Assembly: GCA_002869695.1 (NCBI GenBank) | Contig: PKUD01000109.1 | Location: forward strand, 207 to 39,335 | Source: Desulfuromonas sp. | GTDB taxonomy: Bacteria; Desulfobacterota; Desulfuromonadia; Desulfuromonadales; Geopsychrobacteraceae | DNA: 39,129 nt | Direction of reading: 5' to 3' | Shown here: positions 12,528-27,902 of the stretch, in pieces | Numbering within the stretch: position 1 is the stretch's first letter | How the letters are laid out: every line of letters begins with the position of its first letter | Notes under the pieces: model-generated | Told to the model about the DNA's origin: nothing | Database searches by the model: none | The model's input: the letters and a program-made list of their open reading frames with translations, nothing else | Position numbers and translations under genes: made by a program

Positions 12528-12618
<91 letters not shown>

Positions 12619-12665: not shown

Positions 12666-12791
12666 GCCGGCAGAAGTGACAGCCGGGTCCCGCGCAACGG
12701 ACGGCCGCGAACTCCGTCAGGCCCGGAAGGGAGCAGCGGTAACGGTTCTGGACGTGTGCCGCGGGGGTGCCTGGCTGTCACTTGTGTCGGC
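12666..12791 (+). ncRNA. ffs: Signal recognition particle RNA (4.5S type)
   Basis: A long hairpin RNA whose apical part carries the conserved SRP core GTCAGGCCCGGAAGGGAGCA with the GGAA tetraloop and the symmetric internal loop that bind Ffh. The ends pair: AAGTGACAGCC (12675-12685) with GGCTGTCACTT (12773-12783), extended by several further pairs outward. There is no Alu domain, so it is the short bacterial type. Its position between tRNA-Ser and dnaX is common in related genomes. Exact ends are estimated. Confidence 0.93.
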
Positions 12792-19715: not shown

Positions 19716-20621
19716 ATGGCTGAATTTTTCTCTGTCCTTATCAATGTTGTTTCTCCGGTCTTCGGTATTGTTGTTGTAGGATTTTTACTCGGAGGTCGGC
19801 TGCAGCTGCAGGCGCGCACCCTGACCCGGGTGGCCTATTACCTGTTTGCTCCCGCATTTATTTTTCAGGCGATCAGTGGCGCTGATATCCCGTTGGACAG
19901 CGCTCTGCGGATGATTGCTTTTATTGTTCTGACCCATCTTGTGGGCGTGTTGTTCGCCGCCGGGATTGGTCGTCTGCTCGGTAAATCGAAAGAGATGATC
20001 GCGGCGCTGGTGATGATTGCGGCGTTCGGTAATGTCGGCAACTATGGCTTGGCAGTCATCCGTTTCCGCTTCGGGGATATCTCCGTGGCACCATCGAGCC
20101 TCTACTTTGTCGGTATCTCAATTACTGCGTTTATCCTCTGCGTCGGTGCCGCAGGCTGGGCCAAGGGCGGGAGCAAGGGGGCTGTCTGGGGGGTTGCGAA
20201 AACTCCGGTCCTGTGGGCAGCCATTCCTGCACTGCTGGTTTCGGTCGGCGGTGTTTCTGTTCCGCTGATGTTGGCGCGGATGGTCAGCCTGTTGGCTGAC
20301 GCGATGATCCCAGTGATGCTGTTCGCCCTGGGCTTGCAGCTGCTGGAGCAGAGACGCGTTTCCCTTGCGGCGGATGTCTGGCTGGCTTCCGCAATCCGGT
20401 TATTGCTGGTGCCGGCGGTCGCATGTCTGATGGCGATCCCCTTTGGCTTGAGTACGGTGGAGACGGCCGCCGGGATTCTGCAGGCCGGCATGCCGACAGC
20501 TATTTTTGCGGCTATTATCGCCAAGGAGAACGATATCCTGCCCGACTTCGTCACCTCGGTTGTGGTGGTTTCGACGCTGGCCAGCCTGGTGACCTTGACG
20601 CTCCTGATGGTGATGCTGTAA
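19716..20621 (+). CDS. AEC (auxin efflux carrier) family permease
   Basis: Integral membrane protein of 301 residues with about ten predicted helices in two halves, matching the AEC family of secondary transporters. Family marks include the first helix VVSPVFGIVVVGFLLGG, the FAPAFIFQAISG segment, the GNVGNYGLAVIRFRFG stretch with the conserved Asn-Tyr-Gly crossover, and a C-terminal GILQAGMPTAIFAAIIAKEND. Relatives export or import carboxylic acids such as malate or other organic anions; the substrate here is unknown. AGGTGA precedes the ATG. The upstream 190 bp contain a short perfect hairpin TTCCGC-AAA-GCGGAA (19678-19692) of unknown role. The gene lies between PFOR and the alanine-type attenuator. 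Confidence 0.85.
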   Translation: MAEFFSVLINVVSPVFGIVVVGFLLGGRLQLQARTLTRVAYYLFAPAFIFQAISGADIPLDSALRMIAFIVLTHLVGVLFAAGIGRLLGKSKEMIAALVMIAAFGNVGNYGLAVIRFRFGDISVAPSSLYFVGISITAFILCVGAAGWAKGGSKGAVWGVAKTPVLWAAIPALLVSVGGVSVPLMLARMVSLLADAMIPVMLFALGLQLLEQRRVSLAADVWLASAIRLLLVPAVACLMAIPFGLSTVETAAGILQAGMPTAIFAAIIAKENDILPDFVTSVVVVSTLASLVTLTLLMVML

Positions 20622-20653
20622 GGCGGTAAAGCATTTAGCGCGGGGAATTTGTT

Positions 20654-20680
20654 TGACTTGCCTGGCGCTCTGTGATAATC
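20654..20680 (+). promoter_or_regulatory. Predicted promoter of the Ala leader transcript
   Basis: TTGACT is followed after 15 bp by GATAAT, which has an upstream TGT (extended -10), or after 17 bp by TAATCC. The transcript would begin about 30 bases before the leader peptide start, as expected for an attenuator. Confidence 0.55.
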
Positions 20681-20715
20681 CAAGCAGCTAACTTTACCAA
20701 CATGAGGACTCAATC

Positions 20716-20796
20716 ATGATCAACACGGCAGCAGCGGCAGCACGAGCGAACCGGGCGACATTACGCCTAGAGACTGTCCGTCACCTGAAGGGGTGA
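20716..20796 (+). CDS. Alanine-rich leader peptide (26 aa)
   Basis: Short ORF starting M-I-N-T followed by five consecutive Ala, then R-A-N-R-A, and ending in V-R-H-L-K-G. Seven of 26 residues are Ala, encoded only by GCA (4) and GCG (3), that is, by codons read by one tRNA-Ala(UGC). GAGGA lies 8 bases before the ATG. The stop (20794-20796) is 24 bases before a terminator hairpin, and the region between can form a competing structure. This is the layout of amino-acid leader peptides such as trpL or pheL, with Ala as the sensed residue. No function other than as a sensor is expected. Product unlikely to be stable. Confidence 0.75.
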   Translation: MINTAAAAARANRATLRLETVRHLKG

Positions 20797-20853
20797 GCCG
20801 CGTAACTGCATAATTTACCGAGGCCATGGACAGACCAGTCCATGGCCTTTTTT
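20774..20853 (+). promoter_or_regulatory. Attenuator (antiterminator/terminator) before the aminotransferase
   Basis: Terminator: an 11-bp perfect stem (20821-20831 with 20838-20848), loop AGACCA, then six T. Antiterminator: 20774-20781 can pair over 8 bp with 20826-20833, which uses the 5' arm of the terminator. A ribosome that stalls at the Ala codons (20728-20742) leaves 20774-20781 free to pair; a ribosome that reaches the stop codon covers it and the terminator forms. Low charged tRNA-Ala would thus turn the downstream gene on. Confidence 0.72.
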
Positions 20854-20886
20854 ATTTCTTTATTTTATTGATTCGGGAGATCGAAG

Positions 20887-22191
20887 ATGCGCAACAATAT
20901 CGTTCATATCGGTGCCGGCGAGCTCACCTATGAGATCCGGGCGATCGTTGATATTGCTGAAAAACTCAACAGGCTTGGCATCAAAACCAACATGGAGAAT
21001 ATCGGTGATCCGGTTGCCAAGGGGGAGAAGATCCCCACCTGGATGAAGGAGATCGTTGCCGATCTGGCCATGCAGGACTGCTCATACGGCTATTGTGCGA
21101 CCAAGGGGTTGCTGCAGACCCGTGAGTTTCTCGCCGAAAAAACCAACTGTCGCGGCGGAGTGCAGATCAGCGCCTAGGACATCATCTTCTTTAACGGACT
21201 CGGTGATGCCATCCAGAAGGTGTACGGCCTGCTGCGGCGTGAAGCCCGGGTCATCGGTCCTTCACCGACCTACTCGACGCACTCTTCAGCGGAAGGCGCT
21301 CATGCCGGACAGGCTCCGGTGACTTACCGCCTTGATCCGGACAACAACTGGTACCCGGACCTGGATGACCTGCGTCTCTCGATAAAATACAATCCGACCA
21401 TCTCCGGGATTCTGATCATCAACCCGGATAATCCGACCGGTGCTGTCTACCCCGAGCGCATCCTGCGGGAGATGATCCAGATCGCCAAGGAGTTCGACCT
21501 GTTCGTCATCTGCGACGAAATTTACAACAACATTGTTTACAATGGGCAGTCGACCAGGCCGATTTCAGATCTGGTCGGGGACGTGCCGGCGATCTCCATG
21601 AAGGGTATCAGCAAGGAAGTGCCCTGGCCTGGCTCACGCTGTGGCTGGATCGAGGTCTACAATGCGGACAAGGACGAGCTTTTCAGTCGTTATATCCAGA
21701 GCATCCTCAATTCGAAGATGGTCGAGGTTTGTTCCACGACGCTGCCACAGAAGGCGATTCCGAAAATTCTCAGTCACCCGCTCTATGAGGGCTATCTGCG
21801 GGACCGGATAGCACGCTATGAAAAGTTTTCCAACATTGCCTACGACCTGCTGAAGAAAGTTCCGGGGCTCAAAGTCAACCGGACCAATGGCTCTTTTTAT
21901 ATGAGCGTGGTCTTTGACCGCTCCCGGCTCAACCAGAGACAGACTCTGCCGATTGAAAATAAGGAGGTCCGCCAGATGGTTGAAGAGCTGGTGGCACCGC
22001 CGAGCGTGTCGCTGGATAAACGCTTCGTCTATTACCTGTTGGCTTCCACCGGAATCTGTACCGTGCCGATCTCTTCCTTCTGCACCGAAGAGCGTGGGTT
22101 CCGGATTACCTTCCTGGAGCAGGACGAACAGGAGTTTCTCAAGATCTTCCAGACGATCGCCAGCAGTATAGAAGCTTACCTGATCTCCTGA
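20887..22191 (+). pseudogene. PLP-dependent aminotransferase (AlaA/AlaT-like), interrupted by in-frame TAG
   Basis: Fold-type I aminotransferase of 434 codons with the amber codon TAG at codon 97 (21175-21177). Both sides are a single continuous frame: the N-terminal 96 residues (HIGAGELTYEIRAIVDIA) and then DIIFFNGLGDAIQKVYGLLR through ILIINPDNPTGAVYPE (substrate and PLP binding) and SMKGISKEVPWPGSRCGW with the Schiff-base lysine. No other defect is seen. Relatives usually carry an acidic residue before D-I-I-F-F-N-G, so a single GAG to TAG change is the simplest explanation. It may be a recent mutation, a sequencing error, or an amber codon that is read through. The ribosome-binding site GGGAG is intact, and the attenuator upstream implies a role in alanine or pyruvate-linked amino-acid synthesis. 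Confidence 0.8.
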
Positions 22192-22226: not shown

Positions 22227-23603
22227 ATGACAATGTTTTCGACGGATAATCGCAACCTGCCCATAGAGAATCGGGCGCAATTAACTGAATACCTCACCCG
22301 CGGCGGCAAGCCTGAGCAGGACTGGGGTGTCGGCCTGGAAGTCGAGAAGCTGATTCTCGACAGGCAAACCGGTGAGGCGGCACCCTACGAGCGTATCCAT
22401 GACCTGCTCAGTGCCCTGGAGGGGACTCTGGGGTGGGTGGGAATTTATGACAATGAGCACCTGGTCGGCCTGCAGGGCGGCAACTCCTCGGTGACCCTTG
22501 AGCCCGGCGGCCAAATCGAATTGTCCGGGCGGCTCTGTCGTGATATCCATTGCAGCAAACGCGATTTTGATCGTTACGCCGGCCAGATTGTCGCTGTCGG
22601 TCGCGAGCAGGGGCTCTGTTTTCTCGGCCTGGGTGCACAGCCTTTTACGCCGCTGGAGCAGATTGAATGGCTGCCCAAGCAGCGCTACGATGTGATGGGT
22701 CCGTATATGCTGCGGACCGGGGATATGGGTCAGCGGATGATGAAGCAGACCGCCGGGACCCAGGTGAATCTGGACTTTTCCGACGAGGCGGATTGCGTCC
22801 GCAAGGTCCGGGTGGGCCAGCTGCTGACCCCGGTTTTCTATGCCCTGTTTGCCAACTCACCGATCCTTGAAGATCGTCCTTCCGGCTGCCTGTCGGTCAG
22901 GGGTGAAATCTGGTCACGCACTGACGCGGATCGCTGTGGCCTGATCGAGCAGCTGCTCAAGACCGGCACCGGCTTCTCCGACTATGTTGATTATGCTTTG
23001 GATGTTCCCCTCTATTTTATCCAGCGTGAAGGGAGACTCTACAACCTGACCGGCACCCGCTTTACCTTCCGCCAGTTTCTCGAGAGTGGCTACCTTAACT
23101 TCCGTGCAACCCTGGCTGACTGTGAGCTTCACCTTTCGACCCTGTTCCCGGAAGTCCGTTTGCGCCCGCAGGTAGAGGTCCGTACTGCTGACAGTCTGCC
23201 GCAGCGGATGGCCGCATCAGTTGCCGGATTGGTCAAGGGTTTGCTCTACAGCGAAGAGTCGCTAAGGACCGTCGAGAGGTTGCTGGGTGATTTGAGCCTG
23301 GAAGAATTCAGGGCGCTTTATCGCAGCTCCTGGAAGTTGGGATTGAAGACACCTTTTCAGGACGGTTCTCTGGGTGAGGTCGCTGGTGATCTGCTGCAGG
23401 AGGCAAGGAGGAGTCTACAGCGGCAGTTCCGCGAGCAACTGAGTGATGCTGATGAAAGTCATTTCCTCGATGATCTGGACGCCATAGTTCGCCAGGATCA
23501 GACTCTGGCGGAGAAGCTTCTCTCACGCTGGCAGGGGGGGCGCGAGGAAAAGCTGACGTTGCTCCTTGAACATTGCGGCTATGGGGAGAATCATTCCCGC
23601 TAA
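22227..23603 (+). CDS. gshA: Glutamate-cysteine ligase, plant type
   Basis: ATP-dependent ligase for gamma-glutamylcysteine, first step of glutathione synthesis, 458 residues. It belongs to the plant/alphaproteobacterial class, shown by VGLEVEKLILDR, the glutamate-binding GGNSSVTLEPGGQIELSG, and GQRMMKQTAGTQVNLDFSDEADC with the conserved Met-Met-x-x-T-x-x-x-Q-V. LTGTRFTFRQFL near 270 also matches. Two start codons (22227 and 22233) are possible, and neither has a good ribosome-binding site. It follows the broken aminotransferase by 35 bp and probably shares its transcript, so it may be under the Ala attenuator as well. Confidence 0.92.
   Translation: MTMFSTDNRNLPIENRAQLTEYLTRGGKPEQDWGVGLEVEKLILDRQTGEAAPYERIHDLLSALEGTLGWVGIYDNEHLVGLQGGNSSVTLEPGGQIELSGRLCRDIHCSKRDFDRYAGQIVAVGREQGLCFLGLGAQPFTPLEQIEWLPKQRYDVMGPYMLRTGDMGQRMMKQTAGTQVNLDFSDEADCVRKVRVGQLLTPVFYALFANSPILEDRPSGCLSVRGEIWSRTDADRCGLIEQLLKTGTGFSDYVDYALDVPLYFIQREGRLYNLTGTRFTFRQFLESGYLNFRATLADCELHLSTLFPEVRLRPQVEVRTADSLPQRMAASVAGLVKGLLYSEESLRTVERLLGDLSLEEFRALYRSSWKLGLKTPFQDGSLGEVAGDLLQEARRSLQRQFREQLSDADESHFLDDLDAIVRQDQTLAEKLLSRWQGGREEKLTLLLEHCGYGENHSR

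Positions 23604-27826: not shown

Positions 27827-27902
<76 letters not shown>

Follow-up and report, generated by a model that had tools for sequence, protein, structure and literature searches.

Does the short alanine-rich ORF in front of a predicted aminotransferase gene act as the leader peptide of a transcription attenuator, and if so, would alanine be the amino acid to which it responds? The locus lies in the window (the whole stretch of 39,129 nt that was analysed), which comes from a draft genome of 3.29 Mb in 219 contigs. The features on which the argument depends are as follows.

19716–20621, upstream of the leader: predicted transporter gene (Mem_trans), from a Pfam-type family match
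20653–20679, + strand: possible promoter-like element TTGACT-N15-GATAAT, weak and with a short spacer, picked by eye
20704–20708, + strand: Shine-Dalgarno (SD) sequence GAGGA of the leader ORF, 7 nt before the ATG at 20716
20716–20796, + strand: leader ORF MINTAAAAARANRATLRLETVRHLKG, 26 codons, read from the sequence
20728–20742, + strand: control region GCA GCA GCG GCA GCA (five Ala codons), read from the sequence
20743–20745, + strand: CGA codon (Arg) with an Ala codon directly 3', conserved among the leaders
20746–20748 and 20755–20757, + strand: further leader Ala codons, read from the sequence
20774–20786, + strand: antiterminator strand (strand 2), overlapping the 3' end of the leader ORF, from pairing and covariation
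20820–20853, + strand: intrinsic terminator with a 12-bp stem, a 6-nt loop and six T
20887–22191, + strand: AlaA-like PLP aminotransferase (PRK06855), with an interrupting TAG at 21175–21177 in this assembly
22227–23603, + strand: glutamate-cysteine ligase gene gshA (plant type), with Pfam GCS2 over its cut-off

Direct reading bore out the five consecutive Ala codons and two more, all GCA or GCG, reported in the initial annotation; the run occupies leader codons 5–9 and is followed by CGA GCG AAC CGG GCG. The 26-codon ORF and its GAGGA were also as described there, except that the spacing is 7 nt and not 8. The terminator stem spans 20820–20849, with a G.U end pair, and the six T, correctly noted, lie at 20848–20853, whereas the stem measures 12 bp instead of the 11 bp claimed and starts 23 nt, not 24, after the end of the stop codon (20796). 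The alternative 8-bp pairing that had been proposed, between 20774–20781 (CTGTCCGT) and 20826–20833 (ATGGACAG), is present with one G.U, and a second segment pairs 20784–20786 with 20821–20823. The 8-bp pairing would break the terminator. The 161-nt leader folds at −58.2 kcal/mol, lower than 200 of 200 shuffled sequences (z = −4.86), with the Ala codons in the minimum free energy (MFE) fold paired with a segment 3' of the stop. A consensus promoter scan of 20500–21000 returned no promoter-like site. A stretch TTTGACTT...CTATGCTAACC occurs upstream in L035, one of the orthologous loci described below.

Orthologues of the aminotransferase were drawn from a set of 79 relatives, 71 of which gave a match, and from GTDB genomes (the best 80 of 549), and 110 loci yielded 87 distinct upstream regions, 23 being dropped as duplicates or because of contig ends or starts that were not reached. 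A leader was counted by script when an SD-led ORF had 4 or more Ala among 12 residues and ended 0–70 nt before a terminator, an SD-like match being required for every leader counted in this way. Such a leader was found in 63 of the 87 distinct upstreams and in none of 870 dinucleotide-shuffled ones. With a slightly revised script, 64 of the 87 were counted at a threshold of at least 4 Ala and likewise at one of at least 5, compared with 2/248 and 0/248, respectively, for control upstreams of other ORFs (at least 200 aa, either strand, loci L031–L110, some of these ORFs not being genes). These figures bear on the simplest alternative, that an ordinary constitutive terminator happens to be preceded by a chance ORF. 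An SD-led ORF plus a terminator of any kind is indeed not rare, being found in 44/870 shuffles and 33/248 control upstreams, but the Ala runs, in 0/870 and 2/248 of the same sets, are present in 63–64/87 orthologue upstreams, and the antiterminator covaries (see below), which together make coincidence hardly tenable.

When five leaders recognized by eye are added to the 63 found by script, with starts reassigned, Ala leaders total 68 of the 87 distinct upstreams, which are related to one another, so that these counts are not independent draws. The search of orthologous upstream regions proposed in the initial annotation thus yielded the Ala codon clusters and terminators it had looked for. The 19 upstreams without a leader belong to four Desulfuromonadales loci and to 15 distant orthologues (within L093–L110, at most 74% identity). 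The four loci (L035, L046, L052 and L057) form one clade with a support of 99, and no terminator was found in this clade either. A palindromic ACTGTATACAGT box is present at 2823–2834 of L035 and also upstream in L046 and L057, all of which have lost the Ala leader; a transcription-factor site may have replaced the leader in these three loci. A similar but imperfect ACTGTATACAGT-like box is present in L026, which has retained its leader. On a quickly built tree of the 110 rows, the presence or absence of the leader requires 4 changes vs 27.8 with shuffled labels.

Across the phylum, an orthologue at E ≤ 1e-120 was detected in 82 of 395 genomes. Among those having it, an Ala leader is present in 9/9 genomes of the same order and in 6/8 of the same class outside the order (G141, G361 and G230 by script; G433, G278 and G176 by eye), none being found in G103 and G321 of that class. 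In other classes it was counted in 10 of 65 orthologues (G359, G379, G099, G253, G299, G347, G155 and G439 by script; G260 and G403 by eye), a figure in which G403 is counted on an ORF other than the one chosen by the script, which was not accepted, L155, L165 and L184 have upstreams too short to judge, and most of the remaining leaderless loci were judged by script only. The terminators of these other-class leaders differ in sequence (GGCCGTGGGC, GGCCGCGGG, GGGGCTGCGGGC, CAGCCGTAGGC) and the Ala runs are kept. In L188, L186 and L177 (from G176, G278 and G433), inspection by eye placed the leader ATG just 3' of a promoter-like element with no clear SD, and the leader peptide there is perhaps translated from a leaderless start.

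The reading frame of the 68 leaders is closely tied to the Ala codons, Ala accounting for 657 of the 2141 frame-0 codons but for 159 of 2073 when the frame is shifted by +1 and 76 of 2073 when it is shifted by +2. Each leader contains 5–14 Ala (median 9, mean 9.7) and a mean of 2.5 Arg, Ala richness being a condition on which the 68 were selected. When the ORF was instead chosen blind to composition (by SD strength, then ATG, then length, with its end 10–50 nt before the terminator), the Ala leader was returned in 68/68 loci, with Ala as the commonest residue. When equally long leaders with 65–98.5% identity were compared (42 pairs), differences at codon positions 1, 2 and 3 numbered 205, 225 and 333 over all codons, and 72, 59 and 128 over codons with Ala on either side; the Ala codons shared by both members were identical in 272 cases and synonymous in 76. 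The leader ORFs exhibit a moderate third-position excess. Decay of the frame while the hairpins persist, named in the initial annotation as an observation that would speak against a leader peptide, was not seen, Ala being frame-specific and third-position differences prevailing.

Codon choice is also biased. Of the 657 Ala codons in the leaders, 462 are GCA or GCG, vs 599 of 2015 in the aminotransferase genes that they precede (with codons of related loci treated as independent, the odds ratio is 5.6 and the Fisher p 1.6e-75), and GCC, the commonest Ala codon of the downstream genes, is not the one that the leaders prefer. Under the usual wobble rules, GCA and GCG are read by tRNA-Ala(UGC). 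These observations weigh on a second alternative, in which the Ala codons would be a by-product of a GC-rich stem (GCNGC with GCNGC) and the element a structural or protein-bound attenuator to which the amino acids of the ORF are irrelevant. It draws on the GC-richness of the leader and on the pairing of the Ala codons with the segment 3' of the stop in the MFE fold, but leaves several observations unaccounted for: i) the frame of the SD-led ORF coincides with the GCN register in 68/68 selected loci, ii) differences at Ala codons lie mainly at the third position, iii) the Ala runs are kept where the terminator sequence differs, iv) GCA/GCG and not GCC are preferred, and v) the same 3' module is also located behind Leu, Trp and aromatic codon runs (see below). 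We consider this alternative very improbable.

Besides Ala, the leaders are marked by the Arg codon CGA, which accounts for 63 of 173 Arg codons in the leaders vs 88 of 1593 in the genes that follow them. An in-frame CGA-GCN is found in 52 of the 68 leaders and is absent from 16. CGA may be retained for slow decoding or for RNA pairing. In the trp leader, a ribosome stalled at the Arg codon after the Trp codons is noted to block attenuation as well (PMC1183508). The leader could accordingly be imagined as an arginine or global-stalling attenuator sensing slow CGA decoding or translation stress at large, in which the Ala codons would be filler, and the strong over-use of CGA and the frequency of CGA-GCN are what such an element might display. 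However, Arg averages 2.5 per leader against 9.7 for Ala, CGA-GCN is missing from 16/68 leaders while at least 5 Ala are present in 68/68 (Ala richness having been selected for), and the downstream enzyme is AlaA-like, so that this explanation, somewhat less remote than the other two, still appears improbable. Sensing of alanine through the Ala codons is the reading that we retain.

An attenuator of this kind needs two mutually exclusive stems, and both were analyzed in an alignment of 60 attenuators (A2). In the terminator, 97.8% of cells are paired and 6 of 12 pairs have two-sided changes, and 0 of 500 shuffles reached any of the five covariation measures. In the antiterminator, 82.3% of cells are paired, dropping to 27–43% when the strand is slid by 1–3 columns; 38 cells have two-sided changes vs a shuffled mean of 15.6 (0/500 shuffles), and the covariation score is 0.210 vs 0.174 (0/500), with two of the five measures, the number of pairs with two-sided changes (183/500) and the number of pair types (426/500), not above the shuffles. 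The covariance of both stems, suggested in the initial annotation as a check, was thus observed. Averaged over the 68 loci, the energy of pairing between strand 2 and the terminator arm of the same locus is −17.6 kcal/mol, compared with −12.8 when the strand is shuffled and −15.0 when the terminator is swapped; the pairing ranks at or below 5% of shuffles in 36/68 loci (3.4 expected), and the own terminator beats the mean swapped one in 54/68. In 57/68 loci the best pairing is confined to the 30 nt that end with the stop codon, and in 11/68 it lies elsewhere. A ribosome at the stop would mask most of strand 2, and one in the Ala run would not.

To put numbers on this, the transcript was folded up to the terminator loop and the probability that the terminator 5' arm is held by upstream RNA was taken as the antiterminator probability. 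Its median is 0.77 with a ribosome on the Ala codons, 0.71 with no ribosome and 0.18 with a ribosome at the stop, the last value omitting all RNA 5' of the ribosome, so that it is partly built in and favours the attenuator model. The at-stop probability, to which the same applies, is less than half of the Ala-stalled maximum in 58/68 loci, and 31/68 loci pass a strict switch criterion (above 0.4 on the Ala codons and below 0.15 at the stop). Without a ribosome, the probability is at least 0.5 in 55/68 loci and falls below half of the Ala-stalled maximum in only 8/68. Because the antiterminator is still favoured without a ribosome, a protector hairpin of the trp type appears to be weak or absent by thermodynamics; either such a hairpin is kinetically favoured, or an untranslated leader would read through.

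A covariance model covering the ORF tail and the terminator (R1, 96 positions) was used to look for the same 3' module elsewhere. In the genome from which the window comes, it has one strong match, the Ala leader site itself (E = 3e-15), and seven weaker ones (E = 0.01–0.5), one of which is the opposite strand of that site; the other six showed no convincing Ala leader, the nearest to one being an ORF at L113 that has 4 Ala in 12 residues and lies on the strand of the match. Matches at E ≤ 0.001 are present in 139 of 297 genomes of the phylum. The 30 best-scoring of all matches (L111 and L119–L147) were inspected, non-Ala ORFs by eye and genes by family search. Seven are Ala leaders before the aminotransferase (L111, L119, L120, L126, L128, L137 and L138), 22 carry a leader-like ORF of another kind, either with a codon run or less convincing, and at L144 no leader-like ORF was recognized and no gene identified. 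The shared module would comprise a strand 2 resembling GCCCATCGCC, with which the leader ORF ends, and a terminator resembling AAGGCCATGGGC; in L121, the best of the non-Ala loci, the sequence is CGCCCATTGCCTT...AAGGCCATGGGC, as in the Ala loci.

The codon run matches the gene in 16 of the 23 non-Ala loci, the weak L123 included. Leaders rich in Phe, Tyr and Trp precede DAHP synthase in eight loci (L130, L133, L136, L139, L140, L143, L146 and L147), and aromatic-rich leaders precede ADH synthase (2-amino-3,7-dideoxy-D-threo-hept-6-ulosonate synthase) in L125 and L131. Trp leaders stand before trpS (L129) and trpD (L134), and Leu leaders before leuA in L124 and, more weakly, in L123; L127 has leuA with a Leu-containing ORF that has no SD, and in L122 a Leu-rich ORF precedes the gene for the gamma subunit of a 2-oxoacid oxidoreductase. 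Tyr-rich leader-like ORFs with terminators in L142 (MERETPRTCGYGYYYSRLYRCACP) and L132 (MFENTPTQAYYYRFYFRRGDCP) precede an indolepyruvate ferredoxin oxidoreductase alpha subunit, whose matches are slightly below the cut-off and cut by the locus end; attenuation of such an aromatic keto-acid enzyme, if true, would be unusual. Four leaders have no assigned gene, i.e. those of L121 (Leu), L141 (aromatic), L145 (Trp) and L135 (Ile). The DAHP synthase and ADH synthase leaders have GGCC-type terminators and are candidate aromatic attenuators to which no Rfam model corresponds. Rfam gave no match at the gathering score in 20 of these R1 loci. By analogy, the Ala codons would likewise point to the amino acid handled by the downstream enzyme, and our confidence in an Ala attenuator is raised because the codon runs of the R1 loci match their genes.

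With 746 bits vs a cut-off of 443, the aminotransferase falls in NCBIfam PRK06855, a family whose name states no substrate. Its nearest solved relative is the glutamate-pyruvate aminotransferase AlaA of E. coli (1.8e-45), it scores below the cut-off of the NCBIfam alanine aminotransferase model (NF006230, 197.5 vs 534 bits), and in the tree the window gene groups with those of Desulfuromonadales. The product of the enzyme is presumably alanine. Codon 97 is an in-frame TAG (21175–21177), a feature missed in the initial annotation, the other 67 leader-bearing loci having a Glu, Asp or Asn codon there. Pyrrolysine was considered at this position, and no PylS over the cut-off was found in the same genome; a nonsense mutation or an assembly error is therefore likelier. 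The best NCBIfam model for gshA is TIGR01436, at 387.7 bits below its cut-off of 463.15. In 54 of the 68 leader-bearing loci gshA lies on the same strand, at most 300 nt past the aminotransferase gene; it is likely to be on the same transcript and would then be co-regulated with the aminotransferase by the leader. The genome also encodes an alanine dehydrogenase (over its cut-off), and hence alanine may have another source. No SD-led ORF plus terminator was found upstream of the alanine dehydrogenase gene or of alaS in this genome.

Overall, we consider it highly probable (about 0.88) that the element is a classical ribosome-mediated transcription attenuator with alanine regulatory codons; the conserved ORF, its frame, the codon bias and the two covarying stems uphold the initial annotation, which had placed a leader-peptide attenuator before the aminotransferase gene. 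RNA polymerase would start upstream of the leader ORF, with a ribosome trailing it on what is predicted to be a translated leader. With Ala-tRNA charged, the ribosome would pass the Ala codons and reach the stop, its footprint lying over most of strand 2, so that the terminator stem could form and transcription would end before the aminotransferase gene. When charged Ala-tRNA, chiefly the species reading GCA and GCG, is scarce, the ribosome would stall in the Ala run, leaving strand 2 free to pair with the terminator 5' arm, and the resulting antitermination would carry transcription into the AlaA-like aminotransferase gene and, as a rule, gshA. Both the signal, Ala-tRNA charging, and the ribosome positions are presumed in this scheme, which predicts a rise in expression on alanine starvation. 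A wider proposal, which we advance tentatively and with considerable doubt, is that the phylum uses one module with exchangeable codons (Ala, Leu, Trp or aromatic), the Ala form of which is tuned to the tRNA-Ala reading GCA and GCG, has CGA as a second timer and couples alanine with glutathione synthesis.

Ala-specific attenuation, kept across dozens of species, would lengthen the textbook's short list of amino acids and would offer a way into the control of alanine synthesis in Desulfuromonadia, which reduce metals and sulfur. The bias for GCA/GCG over GCC makes it possible to test whether the codons of a leader are selected according to how sensitive a single isoacceptor is to starvation, and the recurrence of the 3' module behind Ala, Leu, Trp and aromatic runs would allow a change of attenuator specificity to be traced. 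The link to gshA raises the question of why a cell would switch its supply of alanine jointly with that of glutathione.

The initial annotation knew of no established Ala-only leader, and none was found in searches of the open-access literature. A 2004 survey of proteobacterial attenuators by Vitreschak and others (FEMS Microbiol Lett 234:357) is cited in PMC1262725. No model of Rfam 15, its curated amino-acid leaders included, matched 20600–20900 at E ≤ 1; at the gathering score, the only Rfam matches in the window lie elsewhere and are to the small SRP RNA of bacteria and to two tRNAs (12681–12779, 12528–12612 and 27830–27902). The T-box model had no match at the gathering score in the whole window and none at E ≤ 1 in 20600–20900.

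Classical leader-peptide attenuators are known from the trp, his, phe, leu, ilv and thr amino-acid operons. Like them, the Ala leader has a short SD-led ORF with a codon run for an amino acid, here presumably the one linked to the downstream enzyme, a stop near the antiterminator strand, an intrinsic terminator and mutually exclusive stems. It differs from them in its Ala codons, in having an AlaA-like aminotransferase and gshA as targets, in the conserved CGA codon and in having no clear protector hairpin by thermodynamic folding. In the trp paradigm an untranslated leader terminates, whereas the Ala leader without a ribosome favours the antiterminator in folding. The alaS T-box leaders of Firmicutes bind uncharged tRNA directly and have no ORF; the Ala leader would resemble them in reading tRNA-Ala charging and in controlling transcription via an antiterminator, but has an ORF and no T-box match. 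The trp leader attenuator itself has been described (PMC1183508). Also comparable are candidate uORF attenuators found by sequence comparison, which include a Cys uORF (uORFC-8-2) before cysS in Rhodobacterales and a Phe-type one (uORFC-13-1) (PMC8632094). They too are candidates from codon runs and structure alone, and one of them (Cys) lies outside the textbook amino acids, whereas their codons and targets are different and the Cys one comes from another class. Set beside these systems, Ala would be a new amino-acid specificity of a known attenuator type, with a response to alanine predicted from its sequence.
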